DNA of 64,000 bases, from positions 186,001 to 250,000 of the forward strand of contig NZ_QWGE01000001.1 in assembly GCF_003576375.1 (NCBI RefSeq), given 5' to 3'. The position numbers and the translations under genes were made by a program. Below, in pieces: positions 44,956 to 59,774 of the stretch. Under the pieces are notes generated by a model. That model saw only the letters and a list, made by a program, of their open reading frames with translations, was not told the origin of the DNA and ran no database searches. How positions within the stretch are numbered: position 1 is the first letter of the stretch; each line of letters starts with the position of its first letter. Source of the DNA: Pontibacter oryzae (lineage in GTDB: Bacteria; Bacteroidota; Bacteroidia; Cytophagales; Hymenobacteraceae).

Positions 44956-44999
44956 TAACATGGTGGCTTCAACTGTCGAAGCGGGTACAGACTAAGTTA
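44956..44999 (-). other. Degenerate attC-like site, cassette 11
   Basis: TAAC...GTTA ends enclose GGCTTC/GAAGC arms. The TAA stop of the lipoprotein gene is inside its edge. The core box does not match the far end of its cassette, so the site is probably decayed. Confidence 0.45.
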
Positions 45000-45578
45000 T
45001 TTTATTTCCATCACCTCCCCGCCATGGTTGGTGTACTTCCCTTTTTTCAGTTTCAAATCCCAGCGCCCTTTCTCGATTTCATACTCCCTGTCAAGCTGGT
45101 TTATCAACTTTTTCACCTGCTCAATTTCTGGGGTATCGGGCTGTTGGTACAACTCAGGATAGCTGTAAGTTCTTTCTCCCTTATTGTCATGGATAGCTAT
45201 AGACCAATAGTCACCGTCCAGCCAATGCACCTGATACCCGTCCATCGCTTCCGCTTTCTTCAAAAGCTCTCTCTCGTTCTTTATGACTTGATGTAAGGTA
45301 GAGGTAGTGGGTACTGTTTTTTTCATTAAAATAAGTTTGTTGTCTTTGAGGCGGTGAGTGTAGCGGTAAAGGTCAGTATTGCTCACGCCGTTCTTTTTGA
45401 GGCTATAGAATAGCTTTGATGCTATAGGGTTGGCACCCCTGAATGTTATTTCCATTAGTACAGAGTCCGCAGCGGCAAATGTCTCGGCTTGCGGTACTGA
45501 TACTTCTGACTTTTCTTCCCTTCCAAGAGAGCAAGCAGAAAGCGACACTACAAGACATATAGCTACAGTTATTCTCAT
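44997..45578 (-). CDS. Putative lipoprotein, cassette 11
   Basis: 193 residues beginning with a lipoprotein signal (ITVAICLVVSLSACSLG, modified Cys about residue 16). The mature part is hydrophilic with no known domain (FRGANPIASKLFYSLKKNG, GYQVHWLDGDYWSIAIHDNKGERTYSYPEL). Last gene of the array. Its stop codon lies in the attC-like site that follows. Function unknown. Confidence 0.65.
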   Translation of the reverse strand: MRITVAICLVVSLSACSLGREEKSEVSVPQAETFAAADSVLMEITFRGANPIASKLFYSLKKNGVSNTDLYRYTHRLKDNKLILMKKTVPTTSTLHQVIKNERELLKKAEAMDGYQVHWLDGDYWSIAIHDNKGERTYSYPELYQQPDTPEIEQVKKLINQLDREYEIEKGRWDLKLKKGKYTNHGGEVMEIK

Positions 45579-45596
45579 TCTATACTTTTTAATTTA

Positions 45597-45660
45597 GCCT
45601 AACGTGCTCGTGCAGCTCTTATGCTCGGCTACGCCTCGCCTATCAGCTGCACGAGTTTTT
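45597..45660 (-). other. attC-like site, cassette 10 (gene-less)
   Basis: A perfect 11-bp arm pair (CTCGTGCAGCT / AGCTGCACGAG) with a 23-base centre. The lower edge is GCCTAAC, matching RYYYAAC. The upper edge lacks a clear GTTA and abuts the next attC within a few bases. Confidence 0.6.
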
Positions 45661-45714
45661 ACTTAACGTACTTGGCTATAAGGCGGCGTAGCTGGCTTAT
45701 GGGTATGGTTAGCA
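45661..45714 (-). other. attC site, cassette 9
   Basis: TAAC...GTTA enclosing GGCTATAAG / CTTATGGG arms and the GGCGGCGTAGCTGG centre shared with other sites. Its GTTAGCA box nearly matches TGCATAAC left of the IS (one-base indel), the start of the same cassette. Confidence 0.75.
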
Positions 45715-45745
45715 AACGTTATTCTTTAACTTGTTAACTATCTGT

Positions 45746-45937
45746 TTAAATATAAATCACTTCCCCTGGTTTTGATTTCTTGATTTTGTTAATAATTTCT
45801 TTACCATGTTCTACTGAACGACAAGGAATGACTATTTTATTGGGTGAATTCTTAATTTCATTTAAGACAGCCAAATTTCCAGCCATCATTTTCTCAATCT
45901 TCAGGGTGCCAATGATTTTTGGCCTAATCAGTTTCAT
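45746..45937 (-). CDS. Small hypothetical protein, cassette 9, start uncertain
   Basis: 63 residues from the ATG at 45937 (KLIRPKIIGTLKIEKMMAGN, then NKIVIPCRSVEHGKEIINKI). The same frame stays open and protein-like for 25 codons upstream (QVVYIQPEQINLFPKFEAIN), directly up to the stop codon of the preceding gene, which is in the same frame. No ATG, GTG or TTG occurs in that stretch. The gene may have lost its start, use a rare one, or be separated from the gene above by a nonsense mutation. Function unknown. Confidence 0.5.
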   Translation of the reverse strand: MKLIRPKIIGTLKIEKMMAGNLAVLNEIKNSPNKIVIPCRSVEHGKEIINKIKKSKPGEVIYI

Positions 45938-46012
45938 CAGATTAATAGCTTCGAATTTTGGGAAGAGGTTTATTTGCTCAGGCTGTATGTAAACAACCTG
46001 ATATGGTATTAT

Positions 46013-46303
46013 TTAATTCTTTAGATGCTTTTTGTTGTCCTTTTTCTTATTTCTATTCTTAAAGTCACCTTCGAAAAATTGTCTTATCTTACTAAAGGGT
46101 GATAAACTATAATATGCTACAACTAAAAATATTAAACCTATCAAAATCAACAATTCTCCACCAAAACCTGATGGGGACAATGTCCTGCTATTAACACCAA
46201 TAGCCACAAGTTTGTATACAATCATCTTGATGCCCCAGATGATAAAAACTATTGCCATGATGAAGGATGATATAGTCCCTATCCTATCTTTTTTACCCTT
46301 CAT
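46013..46303 (-). CDS. Small membrane protein, cassette 9
   Basis: 96 residues with two membrane helices (FIMAIVFIIWGIKMIVYKLVAIG and LLILIGLIFLVVAYYSL) and a highly basic tail (NRNKKKDNKKHLKN). It overlaps the end of the upstream gene by 11 bases, so translation is probably coupled. No family recognised. Confidence 0.55.
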   Translation of the reverse strand: MKGKKDRIGTISSFIMAIVFIIWGIKMIVYKLVAIGVNSRTLSPSGFGGELLILIGLIFLVVAYYSLSPFSKIRQFFEGDFKNRNKKKDNKKHLKN

Positions 46304-46745
46304 TTCTTTGAGATATTTCCCTTACCGCTGCTTCCAGTTTAGGTAAGTCATTCTCATTTGTTCTGAATCTGACTTCGTGTATTATATTTCCATTGTAAAG
46401 AATCATCTTATCATAGCAGAACTGGAAGAGCATATCAGCCTGCCACCATATTTCTCTTTGGGTTTTATCCTTATCTTCTCTTATTATTTCCACCTTGTCC
46501 AGATTCTTCAAGTCATGCTCTTCTTTGAATAAAAATGGTCTTAGGAAGTAGAACTTAGCCACACCATTTTCCAGATGAACCACACAGTCATAGTAGCTAA
46601 CCCAAACATGCAGTATTAACCCTGACAGGATTCCTAAGCCAATCGCCAAAAGAGTATTTTCTATAACATACCCAAGCAGCAGAGATAGAACAACTACTTT
46701 GAGAATCAGAGAATAAGTATTAGCTGGTACACCTGTTTTTACCAT
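46293..46745 (-). CDS. Membrane protein with PH-like tail, cassette 9
   Basis: 150 residues: two adjacent helices (LILKVVVLSLLLGYVI and TLLAIGLGILSGLILHVWVSY) then a soluble domain (HLENGVAKFYFLRPFLFKEEHDLKNLDKVEI...VRFRTNENDLPKLEAAVREI) with the strand pattern of bacterial PH-like domains. First gene of its cassette, beginning close to the IS110 insertion. Function unknown. Confidence 0.55.
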   Translation of the reverse strand: MVKTGVPANTYSLILKVVVLSLLLGYVIENTLLAIGLGILSGLILHVWVSYYDCVVHLENGVAKFYFLRPFLFKEEHDLKNLDKVEIIREDKDKTQREIWWQADMLFQFCYDKMILYNGNIIHEVRFRTNENDLPKLEAAVREISQRNEG

Positions 46746-46769
46746 TCTATAATTTTAATACTGCATAAC

Positions 46770-47003
46770 CTTTAGATTAGCGCTATATCATTTTTCCAAT
46801 ACCTCTAGCACCCTTTTACCAGGTAAGGGAGTATTCCTCCTATACTTGAAGAGCAGCCAGTGAACTACTCGCTAACCAGGCGAAATTCCTACAGTCCGAA
46901 TCAGTCTGGCTGCTTTTACTTTTCATTGCAGGCGGGGAGTCATATAGATTTTCGGGACTTTGGGCCCATGATAAAGGTTTCGATTCGCAGCTTGCCTTAA
47001 CTA
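46770..47003 (+). ncRNA. Putative bridge RNA region of the IS110 element
   Basis: 234 non-coding bases precede the transposase. IS110-group elements encode a bridge (seek) RNA here that pairs with donor and target. CGAATC (46897-46902) pairs with GATTCG (about 46980). AGTCCG (46893-46898) is complementary to CGGACT, the right half of the occupied target. The stretch 46941-46965 reads almost like the right IS end joined to that target. The RNA itself is an inference. Confidence 0.4.
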
Positions 47004-48014
47004 ATGCTAAAAGATATGGAAAAGCCAATGCAACCGCAAGTCTCCCCTTTTATCCTGGGCGTCGATGTCTCCAAGGACAGTTTGGACGTATGCCTGACCC
47101 GAAAGAATGACGGAGCCCTGCAACACCAGAAGTTCAACAACAACAGGGAGGGCTTTCAGCGGATGAAGGCCTGGATGAAGCATCAGGGATGCGAGGCTGG
47201 CACTGACACCCTATGCTGCATGGAGCACACGGGCATGTACACCAGGCAACTGGTGCACTACCTGCTGGCAAGAGGCGTGCACGTGTGGCTGGAGAGCGCC
47301 CTGCAGATAAAAAGGAGCATCGGCATGGTCAGGGGAAAGGACGACAAGGTGGATGCCCAAAGAATCGCCCGCTATGCCCTCTTGCACCAACAGCAGGCCC
47401 GGTGCCTCTCGCTCTGTGGCGTGACGCTGGAAAGGCTGAAGGACTTGCAGGCAAGCAGAAACAGGCTCATCAAGGCGCTCAAAAGTATCAAGGGCACCAT
47501 CCAGGAACTGCTCCCTATAGACCCTGTGTCTGCCAAAACGCTGGAGCAGGTCAACCGGAAAGCCATAAAGGGCTTGGAGAAGAGCAAGGAGCAGGTGGAG
47601 GAAAAGATGCAGGAGTTCATCGCAAAGGACGGTGAGTTGAAGCGGAAATATGACCTGATGACCTCGGTGAAAGGCGTGGGAAAGGTGCTGGCCATTTCCC
47701 TATTGGTCTACACGCAAGGCTTCTGCAGAATGGACGACGGGCGCAAGCTGGCCTGCTACTGCGGGGTGGCTCCCTTCGAGTACCGCAGCGGCACGAGCGT
47801 GATGGGCAAAACGGGGGTATCCAAGTTCGCCAACAAAGAACTAAAGCAGGTGCTGCACATGGCGGCCCTGAGCAGTATACGAAACAACGGGGAGGTGAGA
47901 ACCTACTTCGAGCGGAAGGTAGGGGAAGGCAAGAGCAAGATGAGCGTGTTGAACGCTGTCAGAAACAAACTGCTGCACCAGGTAGTGGCCGTCGTCAAGA
48001 GGGGAACGCCTTAA
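47004..48014 (+). CDS. IS110-family transposase
   Basis: A 336-residue DEDD recombinase. The N-terminal RuvC-like domain has LGVDVSKDSLDVCL, the Glu in MEHTGMYTRQLV, and GKDDKVDAQRIARYAL with the paired acidic residues. A coiled linker follows. The C-terminal Transposase_20 domain has MTSVKGVGKVLAISLLVYT, YCGVAPFEYRSG and the catalytic-serine region GVSKFANKELKQVLHMAAL. Complete and probably active. The ATG at 47004 or 47016 could be the start. Base composition is richer in GC than the cassettes around it. Confidence 0.93.
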   Translation: MLKDMEKPMQPQVSPFILGVDVSKDSLDVCLTRKNDGALQHQKFNNNREGFQRMKAWMKHQGCEAGTDTLCCMEHTGMYTRQLVHYLLARGVHVWLESALQIKRSIGMVRGKDDKVDAQRIARYALLHQQQARCLSLCGVTLERLKDLQASRNRLIKALKSIKGTIQELLPIDPVSAKTLEQVNRKAIKGLEKSKEQVEEKMQEFIAKDGELKRKYDLMTSVKGVGKVLAISLLVYTQGFCRMDDGRKLACYCGVAPFEYRSGTSVMGKTGVSKFANKELKQVLHMAALSSIRNNGEVRTYFERKVGEGKSKMSVLNAVRNKLLHQVVAVVKRGTP

Positions 48015-48067
48015 GAGGTAAGGTTGAACAATATTTAGAGCACAGCGCTTGTTTTTATCATAGATTT

Positions 48068-48117
48068 CGGACTTGGCTTTGCGGTGGCTCTGCTACCGTA
48101 AAGGTGTTGTTGTGTAA
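48068..48117 (-). other. attC site of cassette 8, split by the IS
   Basis: The remaining part runs CGGACTTGGCTTTGCGGTGG...GGTGTTGTTGTGTAA. The missing TAAC edge lies at 46766-46769 on the other side of the IS. GTTGTGT matches ACACAAC at the cassette start (49008-49014). Confidence 0.75.
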
Positions 48118-48165
48118 TGTATTTCTTCAGGAGTTTTTTTAGTATATGCAGTTCAGATGAATTGG

Positions 48166-48987
48166 CTACCTTGGCCCATACCTGAAATCAATAAGCTCTT
48201 TGGCCGCAGGGTCGAAAAACGCTCTATCGCCTAAATAGCAGCAATTCAAATCTACCCTTACCACCTTCTTTCCATTCAAGGTATCTTCCTCTATGCTTCT
48301 TATTCCATAATTGCATGGAGCATCAGAATACTTCTCCCCTCTTTCTTTCAGGTATATGCAGACCTTGTATAGGTAGCCATTCGAATCATCGCTCTTTGGT
48401 TCGCACTTACACTCTGAAATTGCTTGTTTAGGCTCTACAAGGGGAATCATGTCCTGAATATTCACTGGAAGGCTGTTATAGCTGAACCGTACAATCCGCT
48501 CCCCTATGTTCTGCACAAATTCACTTCTTGGCTGCTTATCGCGAAACCTGGGATCGAGTTTATACTCAATCCTGACTGGAAACAACATAAGCTGAGACGT
48601 ATGTATTTTCTCCCCTGTACTGTTCGGCAGGTAGAGAGTGTCCATGTGCTTTTCTATGAAAGATAGTGGAAAGTCATCATGTCCCATGGGGTCAAACCAG
48701 AAGCCATTCTCTAAGTTTTTCGTCCTAAAGCTCTTTAACCAATTCTTTTCATCTACTTTTTTTGCGGAAACGAAGTACCAGTCACTTGTACCTATTAAAC
48801 TCTTCTTAGTTATTATGACAAAGCCCTCTTCAACAAGAATGTCATCAAAGCTTGAAGTGCCTTTTCGTTCTCTTTTATAATCTACGATGGAGCTTACATA
48901 GGTGAATTTTTCAACCACAAGGCTTCCAATGTAAATCAGAGACATTAGGACAACTATAGAAAAAATGATGAATACCGTTTTCTTCAC
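48166..48987 (-). CDS. Membrane-anchored hypothetical protein, cassette 8
   Basis: 273 residues from a GTG start. One N-terminal hydrophobic segment (VFIIFSIVVLMSLIYIGSLVV) is a signal anchor; the rest is extracytoplasmic and hydrophilic (GFWFDPMGHDDFPLSFIEKHMDTLYLP, IVRFSYNSLPVNIQDMIPL). Cysteines cluster late (SECKCEPK, SDAPCNYG, LNCCYLG), suggesting disulphides. No family recognised. It follows attC of cassette 7 and its own attC was split by the IS. Confidence 0.6.
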   Translation of the reverse strand: MKKTVFIIFSIVVLMSLIYIGSLVVEKFTYVSSIVDYKRERKGTSSFDDILVEEGFVIITKKSLIGTSDWYFVSAKKVDEKNWLKSFRTKNLENGFWFDPMGHDDFPLSFIEKHMDTLYLPNSTGEKIHTSQLMLFPVRIEYKLDPRFRDKQPRSEFVQNIGERIVRFSYNSLPVNIQDMIPLVEPKQAISECKCEPKSDDSNGYLYKVCIYLKERGEKYSDAPCNYGIRSIEEDTLNGKKVVRVDLNCCYLGDRAFFDPAAKELIDFRYGPR

Positions 48988-49005
48988 TATCTAATTCTTG
49001 ATATT

Positions 49006-49063
49006 GCACACAACGTGCTAGTCTATGAGGCGGCGAAGCTGCCATATAGGTGTTGTTGTGCTT
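49006..49063 (-). other. attC site, cassette 7
   Basis: CACAAC...GTTGTG with TCTATGAGG / CATATAGG arms and GGCGGCGAAGCTG centre. GTTGTGCTT (49055-49063) is the exact complement of AAGCACAAC (49562-49570), the start of the same cassette. Confidence 0.85.
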
Positions 49064-49069
49064 TGTTTT

Positions 49070-49534
49070 TTAGAGCTTCTCTTCAATCAATATTCTCATG
49101 GCCGTTTCAGATTCTTCAAATGCTAAGGTCAAACTTCTCTTTACTTTACTTCCTTTGTCAGGTAAATAACATTTAGCTTCCTTTTTGAAAGAGCCGATAA
49201 TAGGCTCAGGTATATAGTTTATTTTTTCGACAATATTATTTCTTTGAGTGTATCCTGTGATTTTTTCATCAAGTCCAGACAACTTCACAAATCCTGTTAC
49301 TGAGATCTTCTCAGGGTTAGCGGTCCATAAATTAGCTATCTCATCCTTTGTCTTTGATATTGCTATTAAATATTCTTCGTGGCTGTTCTGTTCTATGTGT
49401 GCTAGCAAATTTGGCAGATCATTCTTAAGGACAATTTCCGACGTATCATCAATTGATATTTCTATTGACTCACTTGATTTATTGGAACAAGAAAAAAGCA
49501 AAATGAATAGGAGTGAAAAGAGGATTGTTTTCAT
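49070..49534 (-). CDS. Putative lipoprotein, cassette 7
   Basis: 154 residues from the ATG at 49534 (MKTILFSLLFILLFSCSNKS), a clear lipoprotein signal with Cys at about 16; the frame is open 16 codons further upstream but that extension would precede the signal. The mature protein is charged, without known domain (LPNLLAHIEQNSHEEYLIAISKTK, RNNIVEKINYIPEPIIG). Probably anchored in the outer membrane. Function unknown. Confidence 0.65.
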   Translation of the reverse strand: MKTILFSLLFILLFSCSNKSSESIEISIDDTSEIVLKNDLPNLLAHIEQNSHEEYLIAISKTKDEIANLWTANPEKISVTGFVKLSGLDEKITGYTQRNNIVEKINYIPEPIIGSFKKEAKCYLPDKGSKVKRSLTLAFEESETAMRILIEEKL

Positions 49535-49561
49535 GTTTGTGAATATTAGTAGATTCATATT

Positions 49562-49633
49562 AAGCACAACGGTATTGTACATGAGGTGAGCGAGGCATCA
49601 GCCGAAGCTTTGCTCATGTGCTTGGTTAGCTAC
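49562..49633 (-). other. attC site, cassette 6
   Basis: CACAAC...GTTAGC with TACATGAG / CTCATGTG arms. GTTAGCTAC (49625-49633) is the exact complement of GTAGCTAAC (50625-50633). The TAA stop of the cassette gene is in the site. Confidence 0.88.
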
Positions 49634-50609
49634 TGTATTTCTTCAAATAGCCACTCTTTAGCAGAAAGCTTTCAGCATCCGACATCAAGATAATGTCCGC
49701 AATAGCTTGTTTCTTGTCTTTGGCATTGTTGTAATATGCCTCGCAAATTTTAAAACCTATGAAATAGGCTAAATCGGCTGGTCGGTTTGTTCGGTAATCA
49801 TACATCCAATCTGTGTCGCCGATAGCCTTCCCATTTTTGACATCATTATAGAATTCGTTCCATAACTCCCTTTCGTGTTCCACACCGTAATCATATATGG
49901 CTTTGCTTTGCGTTATCCTGCCCAACATCAGGGAAGCGATAAACTCAGCTGCCCCTTCCACTATGGTTTGTTTCAGCAGGGATTCATCTGCATTATCTCC
50001 ACTTGGCTGCTGTGTATGAACAGCTTCGTGGGCTACTACACCAATGATATCACCTGTTTGGTTTCCTAGGACAAGCCTCATGAAATCATTCTTGTCAAAC
50101 TCATTGAGATTGACTGTTTGGTCAGCTGCTACAATCTCAGTCCCTATCAGAATCAATCCCTCTGAAGTTGTGCCACCTGTTCTCAGGGTTCCAATAGCGA
50201 AGCACACGTCTGGCTGCTTAAAGGACGGGTAAAGTTCAAGCAGCTTATCAAAAGCAGGCTGTAGTTCGGATTTCCTGTTCTGCACGTCTTCGGTTAAGGG
50301 TCTGATTGTTTTCCAGAATTCAGGCATAGTTCTCACCAGCTGGACGTACTCTTTGGCTGTGAAATTTCTTAGCTGCAAGAACTCCTTGAAGTATGGACTT
50401 GCTTTATCCAGGTATAACTCTTGAAATGCTAAAACACTATCCGATGAAAGTTCCAAATGGTCATATGCCTTCCAGAAATTTTCTATGTCCTGCGTTTCAA
50501 TTTTATAGCTAATATCATTTGATTTATCTATTTCATTAGGAACTTTAGATGGGGTGCAGCTTAAGATGAGCAAGCCACCAAGTAAAATGCTACAGAGACT
50601 CCTTTTCAT
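49626..50609 (-). CDS. Putative zinc metalloprotease lipoprotein, cassette 6
   Basis: 327 residues with a lipoprotein signal (LLGGLLILSCTPSKV, Cys about 18). The motif IGVVAHEAVHTQQ near residue 195 is a HExxH zinc site, and VEGAAEFIASLMLG about 30 residues later offers the third ligand Glu, the pattern of DUF2268/gluzincin-like proteases. Probably periplasmic or outer-membrane bound. Largest predicted enzyme of the array after the TlpA-like protein. Substrate unknown. Confidence 0.7.
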   Translation of the reverse strand: MKRSLCSILLGGLLILSCTPSKVPNEIDKSNDISYKIETQDIENFWKAYDHLELSSDSVLAFQELYLDKASPYFKEFLQLRNFTAKEYVQLVRTMPEFWKTIRPLTEDVQNRKSELQPAFDKLLELYPSFKQPDVCFAIGTLRTGGTTSEGLILIGTEIVAADQTVNLNEFDKNDFMRLVLGNQTGDIIGVVAHEAVHTQQPSGDNADESLLKQTIVEGAAEFIASLMLGRITQSKAIYDYGVEHERELWNEFYNDVKNGKAIGDTDWMYDYRTNRPADLAYFIGFKICEAYYNNAKDKKQAIADIILMSDAESFLLKSGYLKKYSS

Positions 50610-50624
50610 TTATAATCATTTATT

Positions 50625-50693
50625 GTAGCTAACGTGCTGGTATAGCAGATGGTGAGGCAAAGCCGAAGCATACCTGCTATACTTTGTTACCTG
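50625..50693 (-). other. attC site, cassette 5
   Basis: TAACGTGCTGGTATAGCAG...CTGCTATACTTTGTTA: the 10-bp arms pair well. GTTACCTGC (50686-50694) is the exact complement of GCAGGTAAC (51438-51446). Confidence 0.9.
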
Positions 50694-50704
50694 CTTTTGT
50701 TTTT

Positions 50705-51427
50705 CTATTTCTTAGTTGATTCAAGCAACTCTGCCATCTGCTCATACCATTCAAGATATGCTCCGTCTGGCTGGAACTTAGTTTTGAATTCTTTAAAGTA
50801 TACTTCTGATTTCTCACTTCCTGAAGCTGCTGCAATCATCAGGCTGTTAGCTAACTTCATTTTCTTCTCTGTGTACTCTTCTGTCGCACCGATCTGCTTT
50901 TGCCATTGTGTTGACTCAAACTCTTGCAGCGCCTGGACAATTTGGGCTTGGCTATACCTAGCTACAGAATTCAGTTTCTTTTCCCTTTCGAGTTTCCCAT
51001 TCTCATAATAGAAGTATTCGGTAAGCCACTTCTCTTTTACAAGTTCCCGGTTATTACCTAAAGCCAATAGCTCTAACTTCTGTAGCTGAAGAGTGTCCTG
51101 CTCAAATCTTATTTCATACTCTTCAACTGCGCTCCAAAAATCAATGATACTGTCCTTGGCGCATTCTGACAGCACAAACTCAGAGTATATTTTTTTTCCT
51201 TCTCGTAATTCAGGATAGCCACAGATTAGGAGCTTGTTGCCATTGGAAAAAATGAAAGTTGTGTCAGGCTCTGACTCTGCATACTTTGAAGCTGCACATT
51301 CATCACAGTCTCCTTCAGACGCACCTGTACTGCCTACTACTTCTGTTTCTACTACTTGCACTACTTCCTGCTGCTTAGGAGCACATCCAGCTATAAGTAG
51401 GTAAAGTAGTAAGTATAGATTCTTCAT
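50705..51427 (-). CDS. Putative lipoprotein, cassette 5
   Basis: 240 residues with a short lipoprotein signal (LYLLLYLLIAGCAPKQQE, Cys about 15). The mature part includes VGSTGASEGDCDECAASKYAE (three cysteines), KLLICGYPELREGKKIYSEF and a helical acidic C-terminal half (VQALQEFESTQWQKQIGATE). No known domain. Expression probably depends on its own promoter or on read-through of the array. Confidence 0.65.
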   Translation of the reverse strand: MKNLYLLLYLLIAGCAPKQQEVVQVVETEVVGSTGASEGDCDECAASKYAESEPDTTFIFSNGNKLLICGYPELREGKKIYSEFVLSECAKDSIIDFWSAVEEYEIRFEQDTLQLQKLELLALGNNRELVKEKWLTEYFYYENGKLEREKKLNSVARYSQAQIVQALQEFESTQWQKQIGATEEYTEKKMKLANSLMIAAASGSEKSEVYFKEFKTKFQPDGAYLEWYEQMAELLESTKK

Positions 51428-51438
51428 GATTTCTATTG

Positions 51439-51493
51439 CAGGTAACGGGCTTGGCCATAAGGCGGCGCAGCTGGCTTATGGGTGTGGTTACAG
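51439..51493 (-). other. attC site, cassette 4
   Basis: TAACGGGCTTGGCCATAAG...CTTATGGGTGTGGTTA with GGCGGCGCAGCTGG centre. GTTACAG (51487-51493) is the exact complement of CTGTAAC (52639-52645). Confidence 0.88.
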
Positions 51494-51500
51494 CTAGTTC

Positions 51501-52625
51501 TTATTCAACAAGCATTTTCTTTATATCTTCTTCAATCTGCTCTGAAAATCCATAGTACTCCTTTCTCACTACACCCTTGGAGTCTACTAAAAAGTATCTT
51601 GGGTAGCTATTTACACTGTAAGCTTTTAATAAATCTTTGTTTCCGATGAGGTTATTGAAGGTAATCCCTTTCTTTTTTGTCAATTCAATTGCTTTCTCCT
51701 TACTCTCTGATACTATCCCGATTACTTGGAGCTTTTCGGGATACTTGTTCTTTATTTTCTCGACTTCAGGGAATGATTTTATACACGGACCGCACCACAC
51801 TTCCCAAAAGTCGATCAAAGTCAATTTGTCAACTCTCAAAGTTTCTGTTTGGTTCTCATTCATTAGATTCACTAGCCTAATCTCGGGCAGTTTATTACCT
51901 ATCAATTTATTCTGCTGCCGAACTTCTTCGGGAATTAACTCAAAGTCAACGAATCCATGCTTGTAGTCAGCAACAGAGCCTTCAACAGCGTCGTTTATCT
52001 TGATGTCACTCAAGGCAATTTGATGTACTGCTTTATTGCCCAGTATTTTATAGGATCTTGTTATTTTTGTTGGCAAGTAATTACTTTTGTTAAGTTCGAC
52101 TAATGTGATTCTGTCGGTAACATTGTAGATTGTATCATCTTTAAAAGTATACTTCAGTATGTACTTATCATCACTTTGAAGTAGCTCGGCGGATGTGTAG
52201 GCAGAGTCAAGTTTGAAGATTTGAGGCGCAACCAGTTGGCCGCCAGGGCTACCTAGGAACCCTCTGGGGTTTGACTCCATTTTATAGGTTTTATCTTCTA
52301 GTGAGTATACAAATCCATACCCGTTATCATACAGATACTCTTTTGGGAAGTTCTCTCGCCTAACATAGAAGGAGAAGCCAAACAGATCATCTTGTTCATT
52401 TATTTCTATAAGTGCTGTACCTTTGTTGTTCCATACAGTTCCATCCTGAGCGAAGGTGTCGATCCGCTGTATATGATATTCGACTTTTTTGATCTGAGTC
52501 GAATTCTCTTCAAATTTTGAAGCCACGTAATCCAAATCTATTTTTTCTTCTGTACTGTCAACTGCAACTGCTTTACAGCCCGTCACTAGAACAGCTGAAA
52601 TAAGTAAGGTTATGATTGTTTTCAT
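51501..52625 (-). CDS. TlpA-like thioredoxin-fold lipoprotein, cassette 4
   Basis: 374 residues. A lipoprotein signal (LLISAVLVTGCKAVAV, Cys about 17) leads to an N-terminal LolA/DUF4369-like beta domain (residues about 30-230). The C-terminal thioredoxin fold has the redox motif WEVWCGPCIKSFPEVEKI (CxxC near residue 278) and the cis-Pro NSYPRYFLVD. TlpA-like proteins reduce or fold extracytoplasmic proteins. This is the clearest enzyme in the array. Confidence 0.88.
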   Translation of the reverse strand: MKTIITLLISAVLVTGCKAVAVDSTEEKIDLDYVASKFEENSTQIKKVEYHIQRIDTFAQDGTVWNNKGTALIEINEQDDLFGFSFYVRRENFPKEYLYDNGYGFVYSLEDKTYKMESNPRGFLGSPGGQLVAPQIFKLDSAYTSAELLQSDDKYILKYTFKDDTIYNVTDRITLVELNKSNYLPTKITRSYKILGNKAVHQIALSDIKINDAVEGSVADYKHGFVDFELIPEEVRQQNKLIGNKLPEIRLVNLMNENQTETLRVDKLTLIDFWEVWCGPCIKSFPEVEKIKNKYPEKLQVIGIVSESKEKAIELTKKKGITFNNLIGNKDLLKAYSVNSYPRYFLVDSKGVVRKEYYGFSEQIEEDIKKMLVE

Positions 52626-52637
52626 ATTTCATAATTT

Positions 52638-52693
52638 ACTGTAACGGACTTGCCTATGATGTGGCGTAGCTATATTATAGGCGTGGTTAGGTG
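52638..52693 (-). other. attC site, cassette 3
   Basis: TAACGGACTTGCCTATGATG...TATTATAGGCGTGGTTA with GTGGCGTAGCT centre. GTTAGGTG (52686-52693) is the exact complement of CACCTAAC (53246-53253) and both fit the RYYYAAC/GTTRRRY consensus. Confidence 0.9.
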
Positions 52694-52699
52694 TTGTAA

Positions 52700-52918
52700 T
52701 TATTTCTTAATTAGTTTTCTTATTAATTCTACTACCTGAAAAATAAGCAACACAGAGCCTAAAAGTATAATTGCCAATCCCCCATAGAAGGAAGCTGAAC
52801 TGTAGCTTGGTTCTAAACTTTTATACCAAGGTAAGGCCAGTAAATAAAGCCCAGCCTTTATGCATAGTATGGAGAATACAAGTCTTATTATAATTCCCAC
52901 TTTTATCTGGATGGTCAT
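52700..52918 (-). CDS. Two-helix membrane protein, cassette 3
   Basis: 72 residues from the ATG at 52918 (an earlier in-frame ATG at 52969 overlaps the previous gene by 41 bases). Two helices (IIIRLVFSILCIKAGLYLLAL and GGLAIILLGSVLLIFQVVELI) and a basic tail RKLIKK. It starts 10 bases after the stop of the 101-residue gene, so the two are co-translated. No family recognised. Confidence 0.55.
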   Translation of the reverse strand: MTIQIKVGIIIRLVFSILCIKAGLYLLALPWYKSLEPSYSSASFYGGLAIILLGSVLLIFQVVELIRKLIKK

Positions 52919-52928
52919 TTTAACTTTA

Positions 52929-53234
52929 TTAGTCTTCTTTTTCTTTAACAGGATAAGTGTGGAAGACATAAACCTGCTTGTCTATGAGGGCTTGTTCATA
53001 GTACTCAAGTCCATTTTTATCTTCTAAATAGTCTTCTCTTGTTATAGTGTAAGCTTCATCTAATACCAGAACATTCCAATTCATTTCTTCAATTTCATTT
53101 CTGGCTACAATATCGGCTTGCTTAAAATTTTCTGACTCTATCCAGCACTTTATGTAAGCACCACCAATATCTTCCAAGTCGCCCGTTTGGCTTTGCGGCT
53201 TCCCATGATAAATCAACAAGAACATTTCTTCCAT
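52929..53234 (-). CDS. Small hypothetical protein, cassette 3
   Basis: 101 residues from the ATG at 53234, 12 bases inside the cassette (MEEMFLLIYHGKPQSQTGDL). The frame stays open through the attC to 53414, but that part is the palindrome and not protein. The body (YIKCWIESENFKQADIVARNEIEEMNWNVLVLDEAYTITREDYLED) resembles small proteins with a ferredoxin-like alpha/beta layout; no name can be given. Confidence 0.65.
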   Translation of the reverse strand: MEEMFLLIYHGKPQSQTGDLEDIGGAYIKCWIESENFKQADIVARNEIEEMNWNVLVLDEAYTITREDYLEDKNGLEYYEQALIDKQVYVFHTYPVKEKED

Positions 53235-53245
53235 ATTTTTTATAC

Positions 53246-53333
53246 CACCTAACGTTAAGTCTAGGTGGCGTCTCGTTGGAGGGTCGCTGTGCTCTGCAAG
53301 GTTCCTCCAATGGCACCTAGACGGTGTTGGTCG
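53246..53333 (-). other. attC site, cassette 2 (long form)
   Basis: About 88 bp, the longest site: GTCTAGGTG / CACCTAGAC and TTGGAGG / CCTCCAA arms around a 20-base centre. GTTGGTCG (53326-53333) matches the complement of CGGCCAAC (53851-53858) in 7 of 8. Confidence 0.8.
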
Positions 53334-53850
53334 AGGTTGTTTTCCCTTTTTCTCCCGGGTTATGCGGACATTGCCCCGGATTAATGCGAACTTTTTCTTC
53401 TTTAGGGAAAACACCCTGCATGGTTGGGTTATTTTCTCCTTTTAAACTCCTTCTAAGTGGCGCTTTAGCCTTCTGGCAATGACGTTAATGTGCTATTGGC
53501 GACGTTGCCAGAGGCTCAGGGCTGGCCCACAATCGATAAAAAAACTAATCAATCATTGGCCTCTCTATTGCAACCAACTCTCTGTAAAAGAGCCACCTGC
53601 CGAAGTTGAATACTTGACTTTGTCAATTCTCAACTATAACTTCGCCCGCTCAAAGTCTTGCCTGGACGCTTCCGTCCGAAAGCCAGCTTTCTCCCGGCAC
53701 CGCCGAAGCAAAACTTCGGGTCAGAAACTACATTTCTTCCTTTGGCTCTTTTGCTGACCGTTGCCCGGCTTTAGTAGCCTTTGATGCCCTCCAGCCCCTT
53801 AAAAAGCCTGAAAGACACGCCACTTTAAAACCCGAAAATAATCCCAATCA
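53334..53850 (-). other. Cassette 2 body without evident gene
   Basis: 517 bases between two attC sites. No minus-strand frame of useful length exists. A plus-strand frame at 53479-53757 (92 codons) has a composition unlike a protein. It may be a non-coding cassette, a promoter cassette or a decayed gene. Confidence 0.5.
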
Positions 53851-53905
53851 CGGCCAACGGCTTGGCTAAAAAGCGTTTTAATGCTTTTTAGCTTTTGTTA
53901 TAGGC
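53851..53905 (-). other. attC site, cassette 1
   Basis: CAACGGCTTGGCTAAAAAGC / GCTTTTTAGCTTTTGTTATAGGC with perfect 10-bp arms. GTTATAGGC (53897-53905) is the exact complement of GCCTATAAC (54732-54740). The TAA stop of the protease gene lies in the site. Confidence 0.9.
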
Positions 53906-54710
53906 TGTTAATATTTGTTTCAATTAGCTCAGTAATTTTATCAAACGGTACACATACAGAGAATCCAGAGTTTGAAATATCAACATGTTGAATTCTTTCT
54001 CTATTATTATACCAAGTTGTTTCATAAGGTATATAATGAGAAACAAGTCCAATTACCCTAAAATATCCATCCTCCCCATGCTCTACTATTGGCCCTCCTG
54101 AATTGCCCTGATACGATGGACAATCTATAATAAATGTATTTTCATTCTTATTTATCCCTGATACAATCCCTTTTCTTATTAAAGGTTTATAAGCATCAAA
54201 ATATTTACTTTGTCTAATACCAAGCGATGTCGGATATCCCATAAGATAAACATCATTAGCAATGCCTATCTTGTCTAGATTTCTAGTAGCTTCAATGTCA
54301 ACTGAAGTGATTCTTGATGCTGTTTGTTCTATAACATATATGTAATCTTCAAGGACCAATTCTGCCGGACGTTTATGCTTACTTTTGTCTTTTTTGAGTG
54401 GTGGATTATTGGTTTTTAAATCCTTGTTTTTACCTAATAATATTATACAGACATCTGCTGTCTTTGAGTAGAAAATTTTTGCATCTAATAAATTAATTTG
54501 AAGAACTACTTTTCCATCATCTAATGGGGATGGGCAGTTGGCAATTAACAAGTCTCCATATAATTCATTTTTGTCGTCAAAGAATACATGCTTGGCAGAA
54601 ACTAATAAATTATACCCTTTATATTTTAAACGGAACCCAGAACCTTTCGATTTGCCTTCATTGATTGTAAGTAAAATGGAGTAAGCAAAATTATCATTGT
54701 TTATTTTCAT
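53898..54710 (-). CDS. Trypsin-like serine protease, cassette 1
   Basis: 270 residues with a chymotrypsin-fold triad: His41 in LVSAKHVFF, Asp in KTADVCIILLG (about residue 86) and Ser in YQGNSGGPIVE (about 204). No signal peptide or PDZ domain, so it is probably cytoplasmic, unlike DegP. Very AT-rich. It is the first cassette after the integrase, i.e. the most recently inserted in integron logic, and would be the best expressed. Stand-alone proteases of this kind occur in defence islands and regulatory systems, but no partner is adjacent. Confidence 0.8.
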   Translation of the reverse strand: MKINNDNFAYSILLTINEGKSKGSGFRLKYKGYNLLVSAKHVFFDDKNELYGDLLIANCPSPLDDGKVVLQINLLDAKIFYSKTADVCIILLGKNKDLKTNNPPLKKDKSKHKRPAELVLEDYIYVIEQTASRITSVDIEATRNLDKIGIANDVYLMGYPTSLGIRQSKYFDAYKPLIRKGIVSGINKNENTFIIDCPSYQGNSGGPIVEHGEDGYFRVIGLVSHYIPYETTWYNNRERIQHVDISNSGFSVCVPFDKITELIETNINSL

Positions 54711-54731
54711 CCTTTAGATATTTTCTTAATT

Positions 54732-54775
54732 GCCTATAACTACTGTGTATAAGGAGTTATTCCGGTTATTGGCCC
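54732..54775 (-). other. attI-like recombination site
   Basis: On the minus strand the core GTTATAGGC is preceded by two AATAAC words (54754-54775), which could be the inverted and direct integrase-binding sites of an attI. It lies between the integrase stop and the first cassette. Confidence 0.55.
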
Positions 54776-54879
54776 TTTAGCTGGAGTATTCGGAGCATGT
54801 TTATTTCTATATCCAAGCATATATTAGTAAGATTTCGGCTTGATCTCCTAAACATTCTAGAACTAAATATATAACATTC

Positions 54880-56334
54880 CTATAAATTATCAAGAGGGCT
54901 GATAATGCTTTCCAACCCGTGGCTCGTGATATGGGTGTAGATCTCGGTGGTCTTACTGCTTTTGTGCCCCAACAACGACTGAATGTATCGCAGGTTTGTA
55001 CCCTGTTCTAACAGATGCGTCGCAAAAGAGTGGCGGAGCGAGTGAGGTGTTACCTTCTTTTGCAGGCCGGCTTTCTCTACACAGGCTCTGAACACATTGC
55101 GGATGCTGTCGGTAGTATACTGCCCCCCGTACTGCCCCTCGAACAGCCACACTTTCGGCCTGTACTCCCTGTAGTAGGCCCTAAGGTTCTCGAGCAGTTT
55201 CTGCGAGAGCAGCGTAGTGCGGTCCTTCTTGCCCTTGCCCCCGCGTATAAGCAGCAGGTTCCTGTCCGACTGCACATCGCTGATTTTCAAGCCTATAACC
55301 TCCCCTATCCGCAGCCCGCCGGCATATAGAAGCTGAAGAATACAGCGGTGCTTCAGGTTATCGGTGGCCAGGAGTATTTTCTGCACCTCTTGCCTACTAA
55401 GCACGATGGGCAGCCGGTCTGCCTTCTCGGGCCGCTCTACCTGGCTCAGATTCAGGGTGTGCTTGCCTAGCACCCGGTGGAAATAGAATTTAACAGCATT
55501 GATGCTCTGGTTCACGAAGGAGTAGGAGTAAGTGCCCGCCTGTACCATCTGCCTATGGTATGAATTGATTTCCTCCACCGTGAAGACATTGATCCTATCC
55601 AGTCCATCTTTTTTGTGGCCGTTAAAGAAGCGCAGCAGAAGCGAGTGATAGGTGCGGATAGTGGTAAGAGAGTAGTTTAGCAGGAAAAGCTTCTCTAAGT
55701 AAGGCAAAGGGCAGGTGAGATAGCCGGCATCCTTCCGATAGGTCTGTTCCCACAGCCTACGCATCACTGCCATGTCGTTTACCTTCATTGTGCCTGCCAG
55801 CCACACCTGTGCTGTACCTTGCACATCGTCAAGCAACTGGTACAGACTTACGGCATCGGTGGCTACGGCAAAGCACTTGGGCTCCTGCAACCACAGGCAG
55901 CAGGAGCTGCACTTCAGCGTTCTGTATACTAGCTCATTGTAAGGAAATGAGAGTTGGATAAATGTCTTCCCTCCATGCTCAAGTGGATGCAAGCGGATAA
56001 CGGGTAGCTCCGGTAACTTCGCCAGGGGCTCAGACTGCAGGCTGCCTGAGGTTATCACAGCGCCCAGTGCCGGTCTCAGCCTTTTGGGCCTGTTGAGGTA
56101 GCGGGTGTCAACTAACGCCACCCCCTGGAAGTGTAGGTGCAACAGCTCAATAGACTCTGGGGCTTTGTGCATCACAAAGCACTTATAGGTCTTGCTGTAC
56201 TTAGCCACTTTACTGGTCTTCAGCAGCTTAGTAATGCGGTGATCAGGCTTGTACCAAAGGCGAATGAACTGCTTCCCCCCGTGCTCGAGCAAGTTGAGGT
56301 ACAGGACGGGGGCGCTACGGTAAGTCTGTTGCAT
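54880..56334 (-). CDS. Tyrosine recombinase (integron-integrase-like) with duplicated N-terminal module
   Basis: 484 residues from the ATG at 56334 (a TTG eight codons earlier is possible). Residues about 8-75 and 95-165 are two copies of one module (LNLLEHGGKQFIRL and LHPLEHGGKTFIQL). A SAM-like core-binding domain (about 190-280) and the catalytic domain follow: Arg342 in GGLRIGEV, Lys in GGKGKKDRT, HSLRHSF (His431, Arg434), LLGH457 and nucleophile Tyr466 in IYTHI. The C terminus SPLDNL is like that of IntI. The extra helix of IntI before the HxxR box is missing. It reads in the same direction as the cassettes. Confidence 0.85.
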   Translation of the reverse strand: MQQTYRSAPVLYLNLLEHGGKQFIRLWYKPDHRITKLLKTSKVAKYSKTYKCFVMHKAPESIELLHLHFQGVALVDTRYLNRPKRLRPALGAVITSGSLQSEPLAKLPELPVIRLHPLEHGGKTFIQLSFPYNELVYRTLKCSSCCLWLQEPKCFAVATDAVSLYQLLDDVQGTAQVWLAGTMKVNDMAVMRRLWEQTYRKDAGYLTCPLPYLEKLFLLNYSLTTIRTYHSLLLRFFNGHKKDGLDRINVFTVEEINSYHRQMVQAGTYSYSFVNQSINAVKFYFHRVLGKHTLNLSQVERPEKADRLPIVLSRQEVQKILLATDNLKHRCILQLLYAGGLRIGEVIGLKISDVQSDRNLLLIRGGKGKKDRTTLLSQKLLENLRAYYREYRPKVWLFEGQYGGQYTTDSIRNVFRACVEKAGLQKKVTPHSLRHSFATHLLEQGTNLRYIQSLLGHKSSKTTEIYTHITSHGLESIISPLDNL

Positions 56335-56358
56335 GGGTCCGATGATATTTTTTATCAA

Positions 56359-56447
56359 ATGTAAACCCCTTTAAAAGCTTATCCGTTTTTTGATGCACCT
56401 AAATGCGTTTACATACGTAACTATACGTTTCAAAAAACGGATGTTCT
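56359..56447. promoter_or_regulatory. Divergent promoter region with paired inverted repeats
   Basis: ATCCGTTTTTTGA (56381-56393) and TCAAAAAACGGAT (56430-56442) form a perfect 13-bp inverted repeat. A GTAAAC/GTTTAC pair lies around and inside it. It is a likely operator shared by the integrase and the zinc-ribbon gene. Confidence 0.55.
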
Positions 56448-56822
56448 ATGAAAGAGGAGAAACACTGTTCCCAGTGCGGAGGCACCTTAAGCGGCAGGTC
56501 CGACAAGCGATTTTGCTCCAACCAGTGCCGTGCCCAGGCCCACAACGCCAAGCGGCAGCAGAACGAGGGAGAACAACTGATGGTCCGCATCAATGCCACC
56601 TTGCGCCGCAACCGCACCATTCTCAGGCAGGCCAGCCCGCAGGGTAAAACCACCATCTACCGGCAGGTACTTGAAATGGCAGGACTCGACTTCCGCTACT
56701 TCACCCACCTCTACCGGACCAAAACCGGCAACACCTACCACTTCTGCTACGATTACGGATACCTGCTGCTGCCCGAGGAGAAGGTACTCATCGTTAACTG
56801 GCAGCCCTACATGGAAAAGTGA
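56448..56822 (+). CDS. Zinc-ribbon protein
   Basis: 124 residues. The N terminus carries a four-cysteine zinc ribbon (HCSQCGGTLSGRSDKRFCSNQC). A helical middle part (MVRINATLRRNRTILRQ) and a compact C-terminal domain (FRYFTHLYRTKTGNTYHFCYDYGYLLL) follow. The type is widespread in Cytophagales and I know of no function. It is divergent from the integrase across a palindromic regulatory region, so it could regulate the integrase (inference). Confidence 0.75.
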   Translation: MKEEKHCSQCGGTLSGRSDKRFCSNQCRAQAHNAKRQQNEGEQLMVRINATLRRNRTILRQASPQGKTTIYRQVLEMAGLDFRYFTHLYRTKTGNTYHFCYDYGYLLLPEEKVLIVNWQPYMEK

Positions 56823-59673: not shown

Positions 59674-59774
59674 GATTTCCTTATTTATAAGACTATTCAC
59701 TTTAATTATTAATATGATATTCTTTTACCCTGGAAAGGCCTGGCACATCAAGCTGACACTTACCGGATTAGCGT

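Follow-up and report, generated by a model that had tools for sequence, protein, structure and literature searches.

Introduction

Integrons spread antibiotic resistance. Their integrase, IntI, reads the folded attC site of a gene cassette through an insert in its catalytic domain and exchanges a single strand; replication then resolves the product. A free cassette is a circle, so the R'' core at its 3' end pairs with the cassette's own 5' start and not with the next R'. IntI sites are built on 7-bp cores and Xer sites on 11-nt arms, and in most IntI integrons, with exceptions, the integrase is transcribed opposite to the cassettes. Here we describe a cassette array in a 64,000-nucleotide stretch of Pontibacter oryzae (contig NZ_QWGE01000001.1, positions 186,001 to 250,000; hereafter the window). 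Our data make it very probable that this array is an integron-type gene-capture platform, and that its integrase belongs to a Bacteroidota family of tyrosine recombinases related to IntI but distinct from it.

A passage of one study defines IntI by a unique additional domain that is necessary for integron recombination (PMC9668308), and a list in another includes Bacteroidota among the phyla with integrons (PMC8618304). We found neither a description of integrons from Pontibacter and its kin nor one of an integron integrase other than IntI in our literature search, which excluded preprints and most subscription papers.

Results

A tyrosine recombinase and an attI-like site head an array of cassettes

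The genome carrying the window is 4.23 Mb in nine contigs. On the minus strand of the window, a tyrosine recombinase gene is followed by an attI-like region and then by about eleven units separated by ten attC-like sites, an order broken once, by an IS110 element (Table 1). An earlier note, made from the letters of the window alone, had proposed an integron with a tyrosine recombinase and an attI-like site at one end of the array. We confirm both elements, with the boundary at 54740/54739, and the integron organisation is borne out by the complementarity of cassette ends, the position of attI, the covariation of the attC stem and the presence of common cassettes at different positions in different species. 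The note's count of eleven minus-strand units also stands approximately. It described most units as a single gene followed by a palindromic site; unit 2 (~53859-53250) lacks a clear gene, unit 3 has two open reading frames (ORFs) and unit 9 has three. We find ten such sites. Site 8 has lost its right edge beside the IS110 element, and the covariance model described below recognised no terminal site in the window after unit 11 (44997-45578). Signs of decay are seen in two units, at 45597-45659 and 44997-45578. The GGCGGCG-AGCTG centre that the note took to be common to the sites occurs in three of the ten and as a variant in a fourth, the remainder having other centres.

As in IntI-type integrons, the locus combines a recombinase gene and attI with mostly single-gene cassettes that carry attC-like sites with a G/TT crossover, a variable first cassette beside attI and varied cassette functions. 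Unlike the usual IntI arrangement, the recombinase is transcribed the same way as the cassettes, and attI lies at its 3' end.

The attC-like sites share a covarying stem

The sites of the window did not align on their own in MAFFT, and we therefore used 41 sites, five from the window and the rest from its relatives, to train a covariance model (R1); these sites were chosen by eye and with the help of a hairpin scanner. All seven core pairs of R1 show at least one double compensatory change in the 41-site alignment, the AAC and CGTT columns are invariant across it, and 40 of the 41 sites fold better than shuffled versions of themselves. The sites thus have the properties of attC in IntI-type integrons: an imperfect palindrome with R'' and R' cores, a conserved stem and little conserved sequence. 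Conservation extends to ~10-11 nt away from the crossover (93% of 74 sites have A at +10, and 74% of 77 have C at -8), unlike the cores of IntI sites and close to the arms of Xer sites.

In the window, R1 found ten minus-strand sites between 45597 and 53903, five of them outside the training set. Two of these five are weak, at E 0.17 (45597-45659) and E 3.4 (53247-53326); the homologue of the latter in locus L014 scores 30.5 bits (loci and genomes are given by our own L and G numbers). The window holds 12 matches at E up to 5. The two beyond the ten sites are a plus-strand match at 45612-45656, which is the same palindrome as the 45597 site, and a stray at 59758 (E 3.5).

We scanned both strands of 28 Hymenobacteraceae loci (398 kb, E ≤ 0.1) and obtained 70 R1 matches, 36 of them training sites and 34 not. 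All 70 lie on the recombinase strand and 69 lie downstream of the recombinase, the lone upstream match being in L011. At least one downstream match is present in 15 of the 28 loci, and ten of the other 13 have less than 800 bp downstream. No downstream match was found in the 1.4 kb searched in L012, which we count as a real miss.

Cassette ends pair as expected for circular cassettes

We scored the complementarity of cassette ends in the window and its relatives over 74 pairs of consecutive sites, requiring a run of at least four complementary bases beyond GTT/AAC. R'' is complementary to the 5' start of its own cassette in 62 of the 74 cassettes, compared with a mean of 3.07 and a maximum of 10 in 2000 permutations. 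When each R'' was instead paired with the R' belonging to its own site, two of 74 scored. Two artefact rows, one with Ns in L014 and one of 13 nt in the window, were kept among the 74. In the window, the attI-side start GTTATAGGC is complementary to the end of cassette 1, GCCTATAAC, and GCAGGTAAC/GTTACCTGC are a second example. This is the relation between the 3' core and the cassette's own 5' start that is found in IntI-type integrons.

The attI-like site is fixed and cassettes have probably moved

All 28 loci surveyed, those of the window and 27 relatives, have an AG/TT 134-148 bp past the recombinase stop codon; L024, which has 87 bp downstream, was left out of this survey. The search covered 120-170 bp past the stop codon; where two candidates turned up, in three loci, we took the one nearest 146. 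Ungapped pairwise identity averages 0.52-0.56 over the 40 bp left of AG/TT, 0.32-0.43 further left and 0.28-0.29 beyond +30. The site adjoins the integrase gene, as attI does in IntI-type integrons, and the first cassettes behind it obey the end rule, which suggests that cassettes are inserted at this point.

In place of the comparison with sister strains that the earlier note had in mind, we compared arrays between species. L013 and L023 have in common a block of 565 bp (92%) that runs from one cassette's G/TT to the next, and L016 and L023 one of 762 bp (84%), both at different array positions. L005 and L017, on separate contigs of P. lucknowensis DM9, have the same first cassette (99% over the 159 bp compared). 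Such cassette sharing makes it plausible that the array is active or was recently so.

The recombinase lacks the IntI insert and belongs to a sister family

In a structure model, the recombinase consists of two N-terminal beta-beta-alpha repeats (residues ~18-84 and ~120-187), a SAM-like core-binding domain (~222-299) and a catalytic domain (320-478). The catalytic residues R350, K375, H439, R442, H465 and Y474 are invariant in a 50-row alignment, and all six are also present in the 41 family rows of the tree described below. The closest recombinases, 78-86% identical, are from Pontibacter. The IntI-specific insert is absent: counted from the alignment, 64-66 residues separate the beta-strand lysine from the histidine of HxxR in 41 of 41 family members, versus 102-111 in 19 of 20 IntI (69 in the twentieth) and 66-74 in 19 XerC/D. 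By regular-expression tally, a WLFxGQ-type motif is present in all 41 family rows and in none of 21 IntI, 19 XerC/D and two XerA.

Against the IntI model TIGR02249 the protein scores 200.2 bits, in two pieces and below the cut-off of 265; the PDB entry for IntI4, 2a3v, also aligns in two pieces, its residues 207-247 unmatched. The XerA-type NCBIfam model named "site-specific tyrosine recombinase/integron integrase" gives 207 bits (cut-off 220), XerC 182.3 (cut-off 335.15) and XerD 181.2 (cut-off 329.6). In a tree of 83 rows, this family (100/98) and IntI (100/100) are sisters (100/87), with XerA and XerC/D outside. Ten of 29 Hymenobacteraceae (window included), 31 of 52 distant loci and four of the 12 first-fetched IntI were hand-picked for it, and two XerA and 19 XerC/D were included; of 18 further IntI stretches, three (L179, L184 and L186) were dropped because they gave no open frame with the pattern used. 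An earlier 60-row tree gave the same grouping, with long-branch warnings. The absent insert, the score below cut-off and the position outside the IntI clade led us to reject membership in IntI. The enzyme resembles XerC/XerD and archaeal XerA in its catalytic fold and residues, its lack of an insert and its motif spacing; unlike them, it scores far below the XerC and XerD cut-offs and groups with IntI, and its genome has separate XerC-like and XerD genes.

The window's genome contains three matches to the recombinase at E ≤ 0.001: the recombinase itself, a second that exceeds the XerD cut-off, and a third that scores best as XerC (316 bits, cut-off 335). It thus contains no second member of the family at this threshold, and no IntI at E ≤ 1e-70. 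Across 395 genomes of the phylum, 105 contain a true IntI above its cut-off; an IntI match at E ≤ 1e-70 is present in 106, of which G156 alone belongs to the class of the window and none to its order. The G156 match, L135 (G156:C40), is an IntI-type integrase proper and shows by eye an insert of the KYPN type, which means that the class contains both kinds of integrase.

N-terminal domains and a possible zinc-ribbon partner

The N-terminus weakly resembles HARP and the damage-recognition domain (DRD) of XPB, domains that bind distorted or forked DNA. Searching PDB sequences with a profile of the N-terminal domain returned nothing credible, and matches to HIV reverse transcriptase, MutS and IF1-like proteins were taken as background. 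HARP, XPB and MutS are presumably kin, although our literature search found no paper on such kinship; the same search, with preprints and most subscription papers outside it, found no account of HARP domains in tyrosine recombinases. Judged by length, L047 and other shorter relatives could accommodate one N-terminal repeat.

The locus also differs from IntI integrons in that a divergent zinc-ribbon gene adjoins the recombinase. A homologue lies upstream of the recombinase in 25 of the 28 loci and was not found in L020, L027 and L030. Upstream DNA at 1-7 kb, compared among 22 loci, has anything in common in five of 231 pairs. Since the gene is kept though the flanks differ, it seems to travel with the platform, and its product may be an accessory protein, a regulator or a directionality factor. 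Zinc-ribbon homologues also lie near relatives of the recombinase in L073 and L080. An inverted repeat, ATCCGTTTTTTGA/TCAAAAAACGGAT (56366-56457), lies between the recombinase and zinc-ribbon genes and is a possible operator.

The system extends through Hymenobacteraceae and beyond

In 120 genomes of the family Hymenobacteraceae, we found the recombinase (E ≤ 1e-60) in 62 and R1 sites (E ≤ 0.001, with at most 43 candidates scored per genome, so that site counts are lower bounds) in 71. Both are present in 61, the recombinase alone in one, sites alone in ten and neither in 48, so that 48 of the 58 recombinase-free genomes are also site-free. This co-occurrence follows genera and is therefore not an independent association. 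In the window's genus, sites are present in 44 of 44 genomes and the recombinase gene in 37. The system is not confined to this strain and is spread through Pontibacter, Rufibacter and related genera.

The window's own genome has at least 31 sites at E ≤ 1e-3 in at least 12 clusters (150 of 1840 candidates scored), and all nine multi-site clusters are one-oriented. The eight multi-site clusters other than the window array lie at C1:51-55k, C2:189-191k, C4:548-550k, C5:73k, C6:81-82k, C7:120k, C7:185k and C1:1005k of G000. In G049 (two contigs), 13 sites lie within ~10 kb after the recombinase and a 14th further on, all on the recombinase strand, as are five sites in G002 (L140). In L138, a locus of G073, six sites near a recombinase are all on the opposite strand, for which rearrangement is the sole explanation we offer. 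G073 has five recombinase matches, and paralogous platforms may coexist in this genome.

Homologues of the recombinase at E ≤ 1e-45 are present in 195 of 395 genomes of the class, mostly counted by the recombinase alone and not by arrays. On 52 distant loci R1 gave three marginal matches. Since R1 is specific to Hymenobacteraceae sites, we sought distant arrays with the hairpin scanner and the cassette-end rule. The scanner alone is noisy, with matches on every strand, and only the rule separates the signal. Downstream of the recombinase in Flavobacterium, Schleiferia and uncultured Bacteroidota we found longer sites, whose cores are mostly 115-120 nt apart. Of 93 pairs of consecutive sites downstream on the recombinase strand, 38 obey the rule (mean 2.2 and maximum 8 in permutations), compared with three of 18 on the reverse strand and 0 of 29 and 0 of 36 upstream. 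At least one rule-obeying cassette is present in 12 of the 26 distant loci with at least 1.5 kb downstream, and none scored in the other 14.

The records tend to end near the recombinase: 16 of the 52 distant loci stop within 300 bp downstream and two begin within 300 bp upstream. Among the class-genome matches listed, those starting less than 1.5 kb from a contig start comprise 29 on the minus strand (the downstream side) and four on the plus strand. Repeated arrays that break assemblies would explain records ending soon after the recombinase.

Weighing the readings

Read from the DNA, the site architecture, end complementarity, fixed attI, orientation of downstream sites, cassettes recurring at different positions and absent IntI insert argue for an integron-type platform with an integrase of its own family. 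Four loci weigh against this. L029 and L030 have no R1 match over 10 kb downstream and are real misses. Draconibacterium (L070) and Maribellus (L037), among the 14 distant loci above, score no rule-obeying cassette; the rule takes immediately neighbouring matches at most 4.5 kb apart, and in these two loci, which have similar sites, by eye later sites match earlier starts across a false match or a longer gap.

The window array seems decayed at its far end, and one could see the whole as a decayed cluster of attC sites lacking integrases (CALIN), served by another recombinase (IntI in trans, or the host's XerC/XerD) with the adjacent recombinase a bystander. Comparable site clusters do lie elsewhere in the genome without a neighbouring family recombinase (12 clusters at E ≤ 1e-3 to one recombinase), and in ten genomes of the family sites occur although no recombinase matches at E ≤ 1e-60. 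The window array is, unlike a CALIN, headed by a recombinase and an attI-like site, and a bystander would not be expected to have AG/TT at a fixed distance past its gene in every locus surveyed, or to be followed by rule-obeying cassettes again in 12 distant loci. IntI at E ≤ 1e-70 is moreover missing from the genome itself and, among the 395 phylum genomes, from its order and family. We regard this explanation as improbable. We are similarly doubtful that the locus is a classical IntI integron whose derived integrase has lost the additional domain. The TIGR02249 score of 200 bits and the sister position of the family speak for such an origin, but the score comes in two pieces and is below the IntI cut-off, the IntI clade is closed (100/100) and excludes this family (100/98), and the WLFxGQ-type motif that marks all 41 family rows is absent from all 21 IntI and 19 XerC/D.

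That the palindromes are transcription terminators, repetitive extragenic palindromic (REP) elements, miniature inverted-repeat transposable elements (MITEs) or transposon ends separating unrelated genes by chance is scarcely credible. They are intergenic hairpins in one orientation, as this would require. However, terminators, REPs and MITEs do not predict complementary cassette ends, which is why we reject this explanation; the sites fold better than their shuffles yet vary with compensatory changes, and the block common to L013 and L023 spans one G/TT to the next.

With an integron-type platform as the preferred reading, the recombinase would be the likeliest enzyme for exchange at 5'-G/TT, both between attI-like and attC-like sites and between two attC-like sites. 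An excised cassette would be a circle whose own ends close the R''/R' stem of the folded single-strand attC, and circles would enter the array at the first position, attI. By analogy with IntI, the recombinase would bind the arms flanking G/TT in attI and in the folded attC and exchange one strand, leaving replication to resolve the product. We propose that the two N-terminal domains may replace the IntI insert in gripping the folded site.

There is a fair chance that the family represents a second Bacteroidota integron lineage, sister to IntI. The fuller proposal, in which this lineage is independent, its recombinase is sister to all IntI and never had the insert, and the folded attC is read by HARP/XPB-DRD-like N-terminal domains, is tentative, and in our judgement just short of an even call. 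If it is true, the integron principle predates the IntI insert, and a lineage carried by as many as half of Bacteroidia genomes has escaped notice because it is by that insert that integrons are detected. A widespread insert-free sister family heading cassette arrays would allow a direct test of the origin of integrons from Xer-like recombinases. It would also mean that a phylum among the most abundant in bacteria has a large and apparently unsurveyed store of mobile cassettes, and would suggest that surveys keyed to IntI miss systems.

Contents of the array

Table 1 Features of the array and its upstream neighbour, in minus-strand order (positions in the window)
Feature	Position	Strand	Basis or remark
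Divergent treble-clef/zinc-ribbon protein, DUF2116-like	56448..56822	+	PF09889 25.0 bits, below cut-off 26.8
Tyrosine recombinase, 492 aa, candidate cassette recombinase	54880..56358	-	Pfam PF00589, PF13495; structure model
attI-like region, inferred crossover G/TT at 54740/54739	54740..54879	-	139 bp past recombinase stop
Cassette 1 gene, trypsin-like peptidase, 270 aa	53898..54710	-	Pfam PF13365
attC-like site 1	53852..53903	-	Covariance model 25.7 bits, E 6.9e-4; outside training set
Cassette 2, ~540 bp, without clear gene, predicted RNA structure	53320..53862	-	Homologues first after attI in other Pontibacter arrays
attC-like site 2, long, divergent	53247..53326	-	Weak: 9.8 bits, E 3.4; outside training set
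Cassette 3, two overlapping small ORFs, function unknown	52700..53234	-	
attC-like site 3	52639..52692	-	Covariance model; training-set member
Cassette 4 gene, TlpA/redoxin-like thiol-disulfide protein	51501..52625	-	Pfam PF08534, PF00578
attC-like site 4	51440..51493	-	Covariance model; training-set member
Cassette 5 gene, lipoprotein-like start (by eye)	50705..51427	-	No Pfam family matched
attC-like site 5	50627..50692	-	Covariance model 67 bits; training-set member
Cassette 6 gene, GldB-like / DUF2268 lipoprotein	49626..50609	-	Pfam PF25594, PF10026
attC-like site 6	49564..49631	-	Covariance model 68.3 bits; training-set member
Cassette 7 gene	49070..49582	-	No Pfam family matched
attC-like site 7	49008..49061	-	Covariance model E 1.7e-8; outside training set
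Cassette 8 gene	48166..48987	-	No Pfam family matched
attC-like site 8, right edge lost beside IS110	48062..48115	-	23.6 bits, E 0.0022; outside training set
IS110-family transposase inside array	47004..48014	+	Pfam PF01548, PF02371
Unit 9, three small ORFs	45746..46745	-	ORF list
attC-like site 9	45661..45714	-	Covariance model; training-set member
attC-like site 10, without recognisable R''	45597..45659	-	Covariance model E 0.17; outside training set
Unit 11 gene, lipoprotein-like start (by eye)	44997..45578	-	No Pfam family matched

Some IS110/IS1111 elements target attC sites, and the IS110-family element here, which adjoins the broken attC-like site 8, is reminiscent of IS1111-attC elements. 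We sought a second copy of the element in the genome to define its ends and found none at E ≤ 0.001, so the ends stay undefined.

Cassette 2 is matched in 18 of 46 genomes of the genus, with up to ten matches each, and its relatives stand directly after attI in L014, L010, L015, L005 and L017. An alignment of 21 near-full-length rows, one of which repeats the window, gave a predicted RNA structure; judged on that same alignment, 26 of 118 pairs have double changes and 88 of 2471 cells are broken. An Rfam scan of the window found tRNA only. Cassette 2 is possibly a structured RNA or an expression element carried as a cassette. The protease of cassette 1 partly matches PDC-S45, a candidate phage-defence model in PADLOC (E 1.1e-9).

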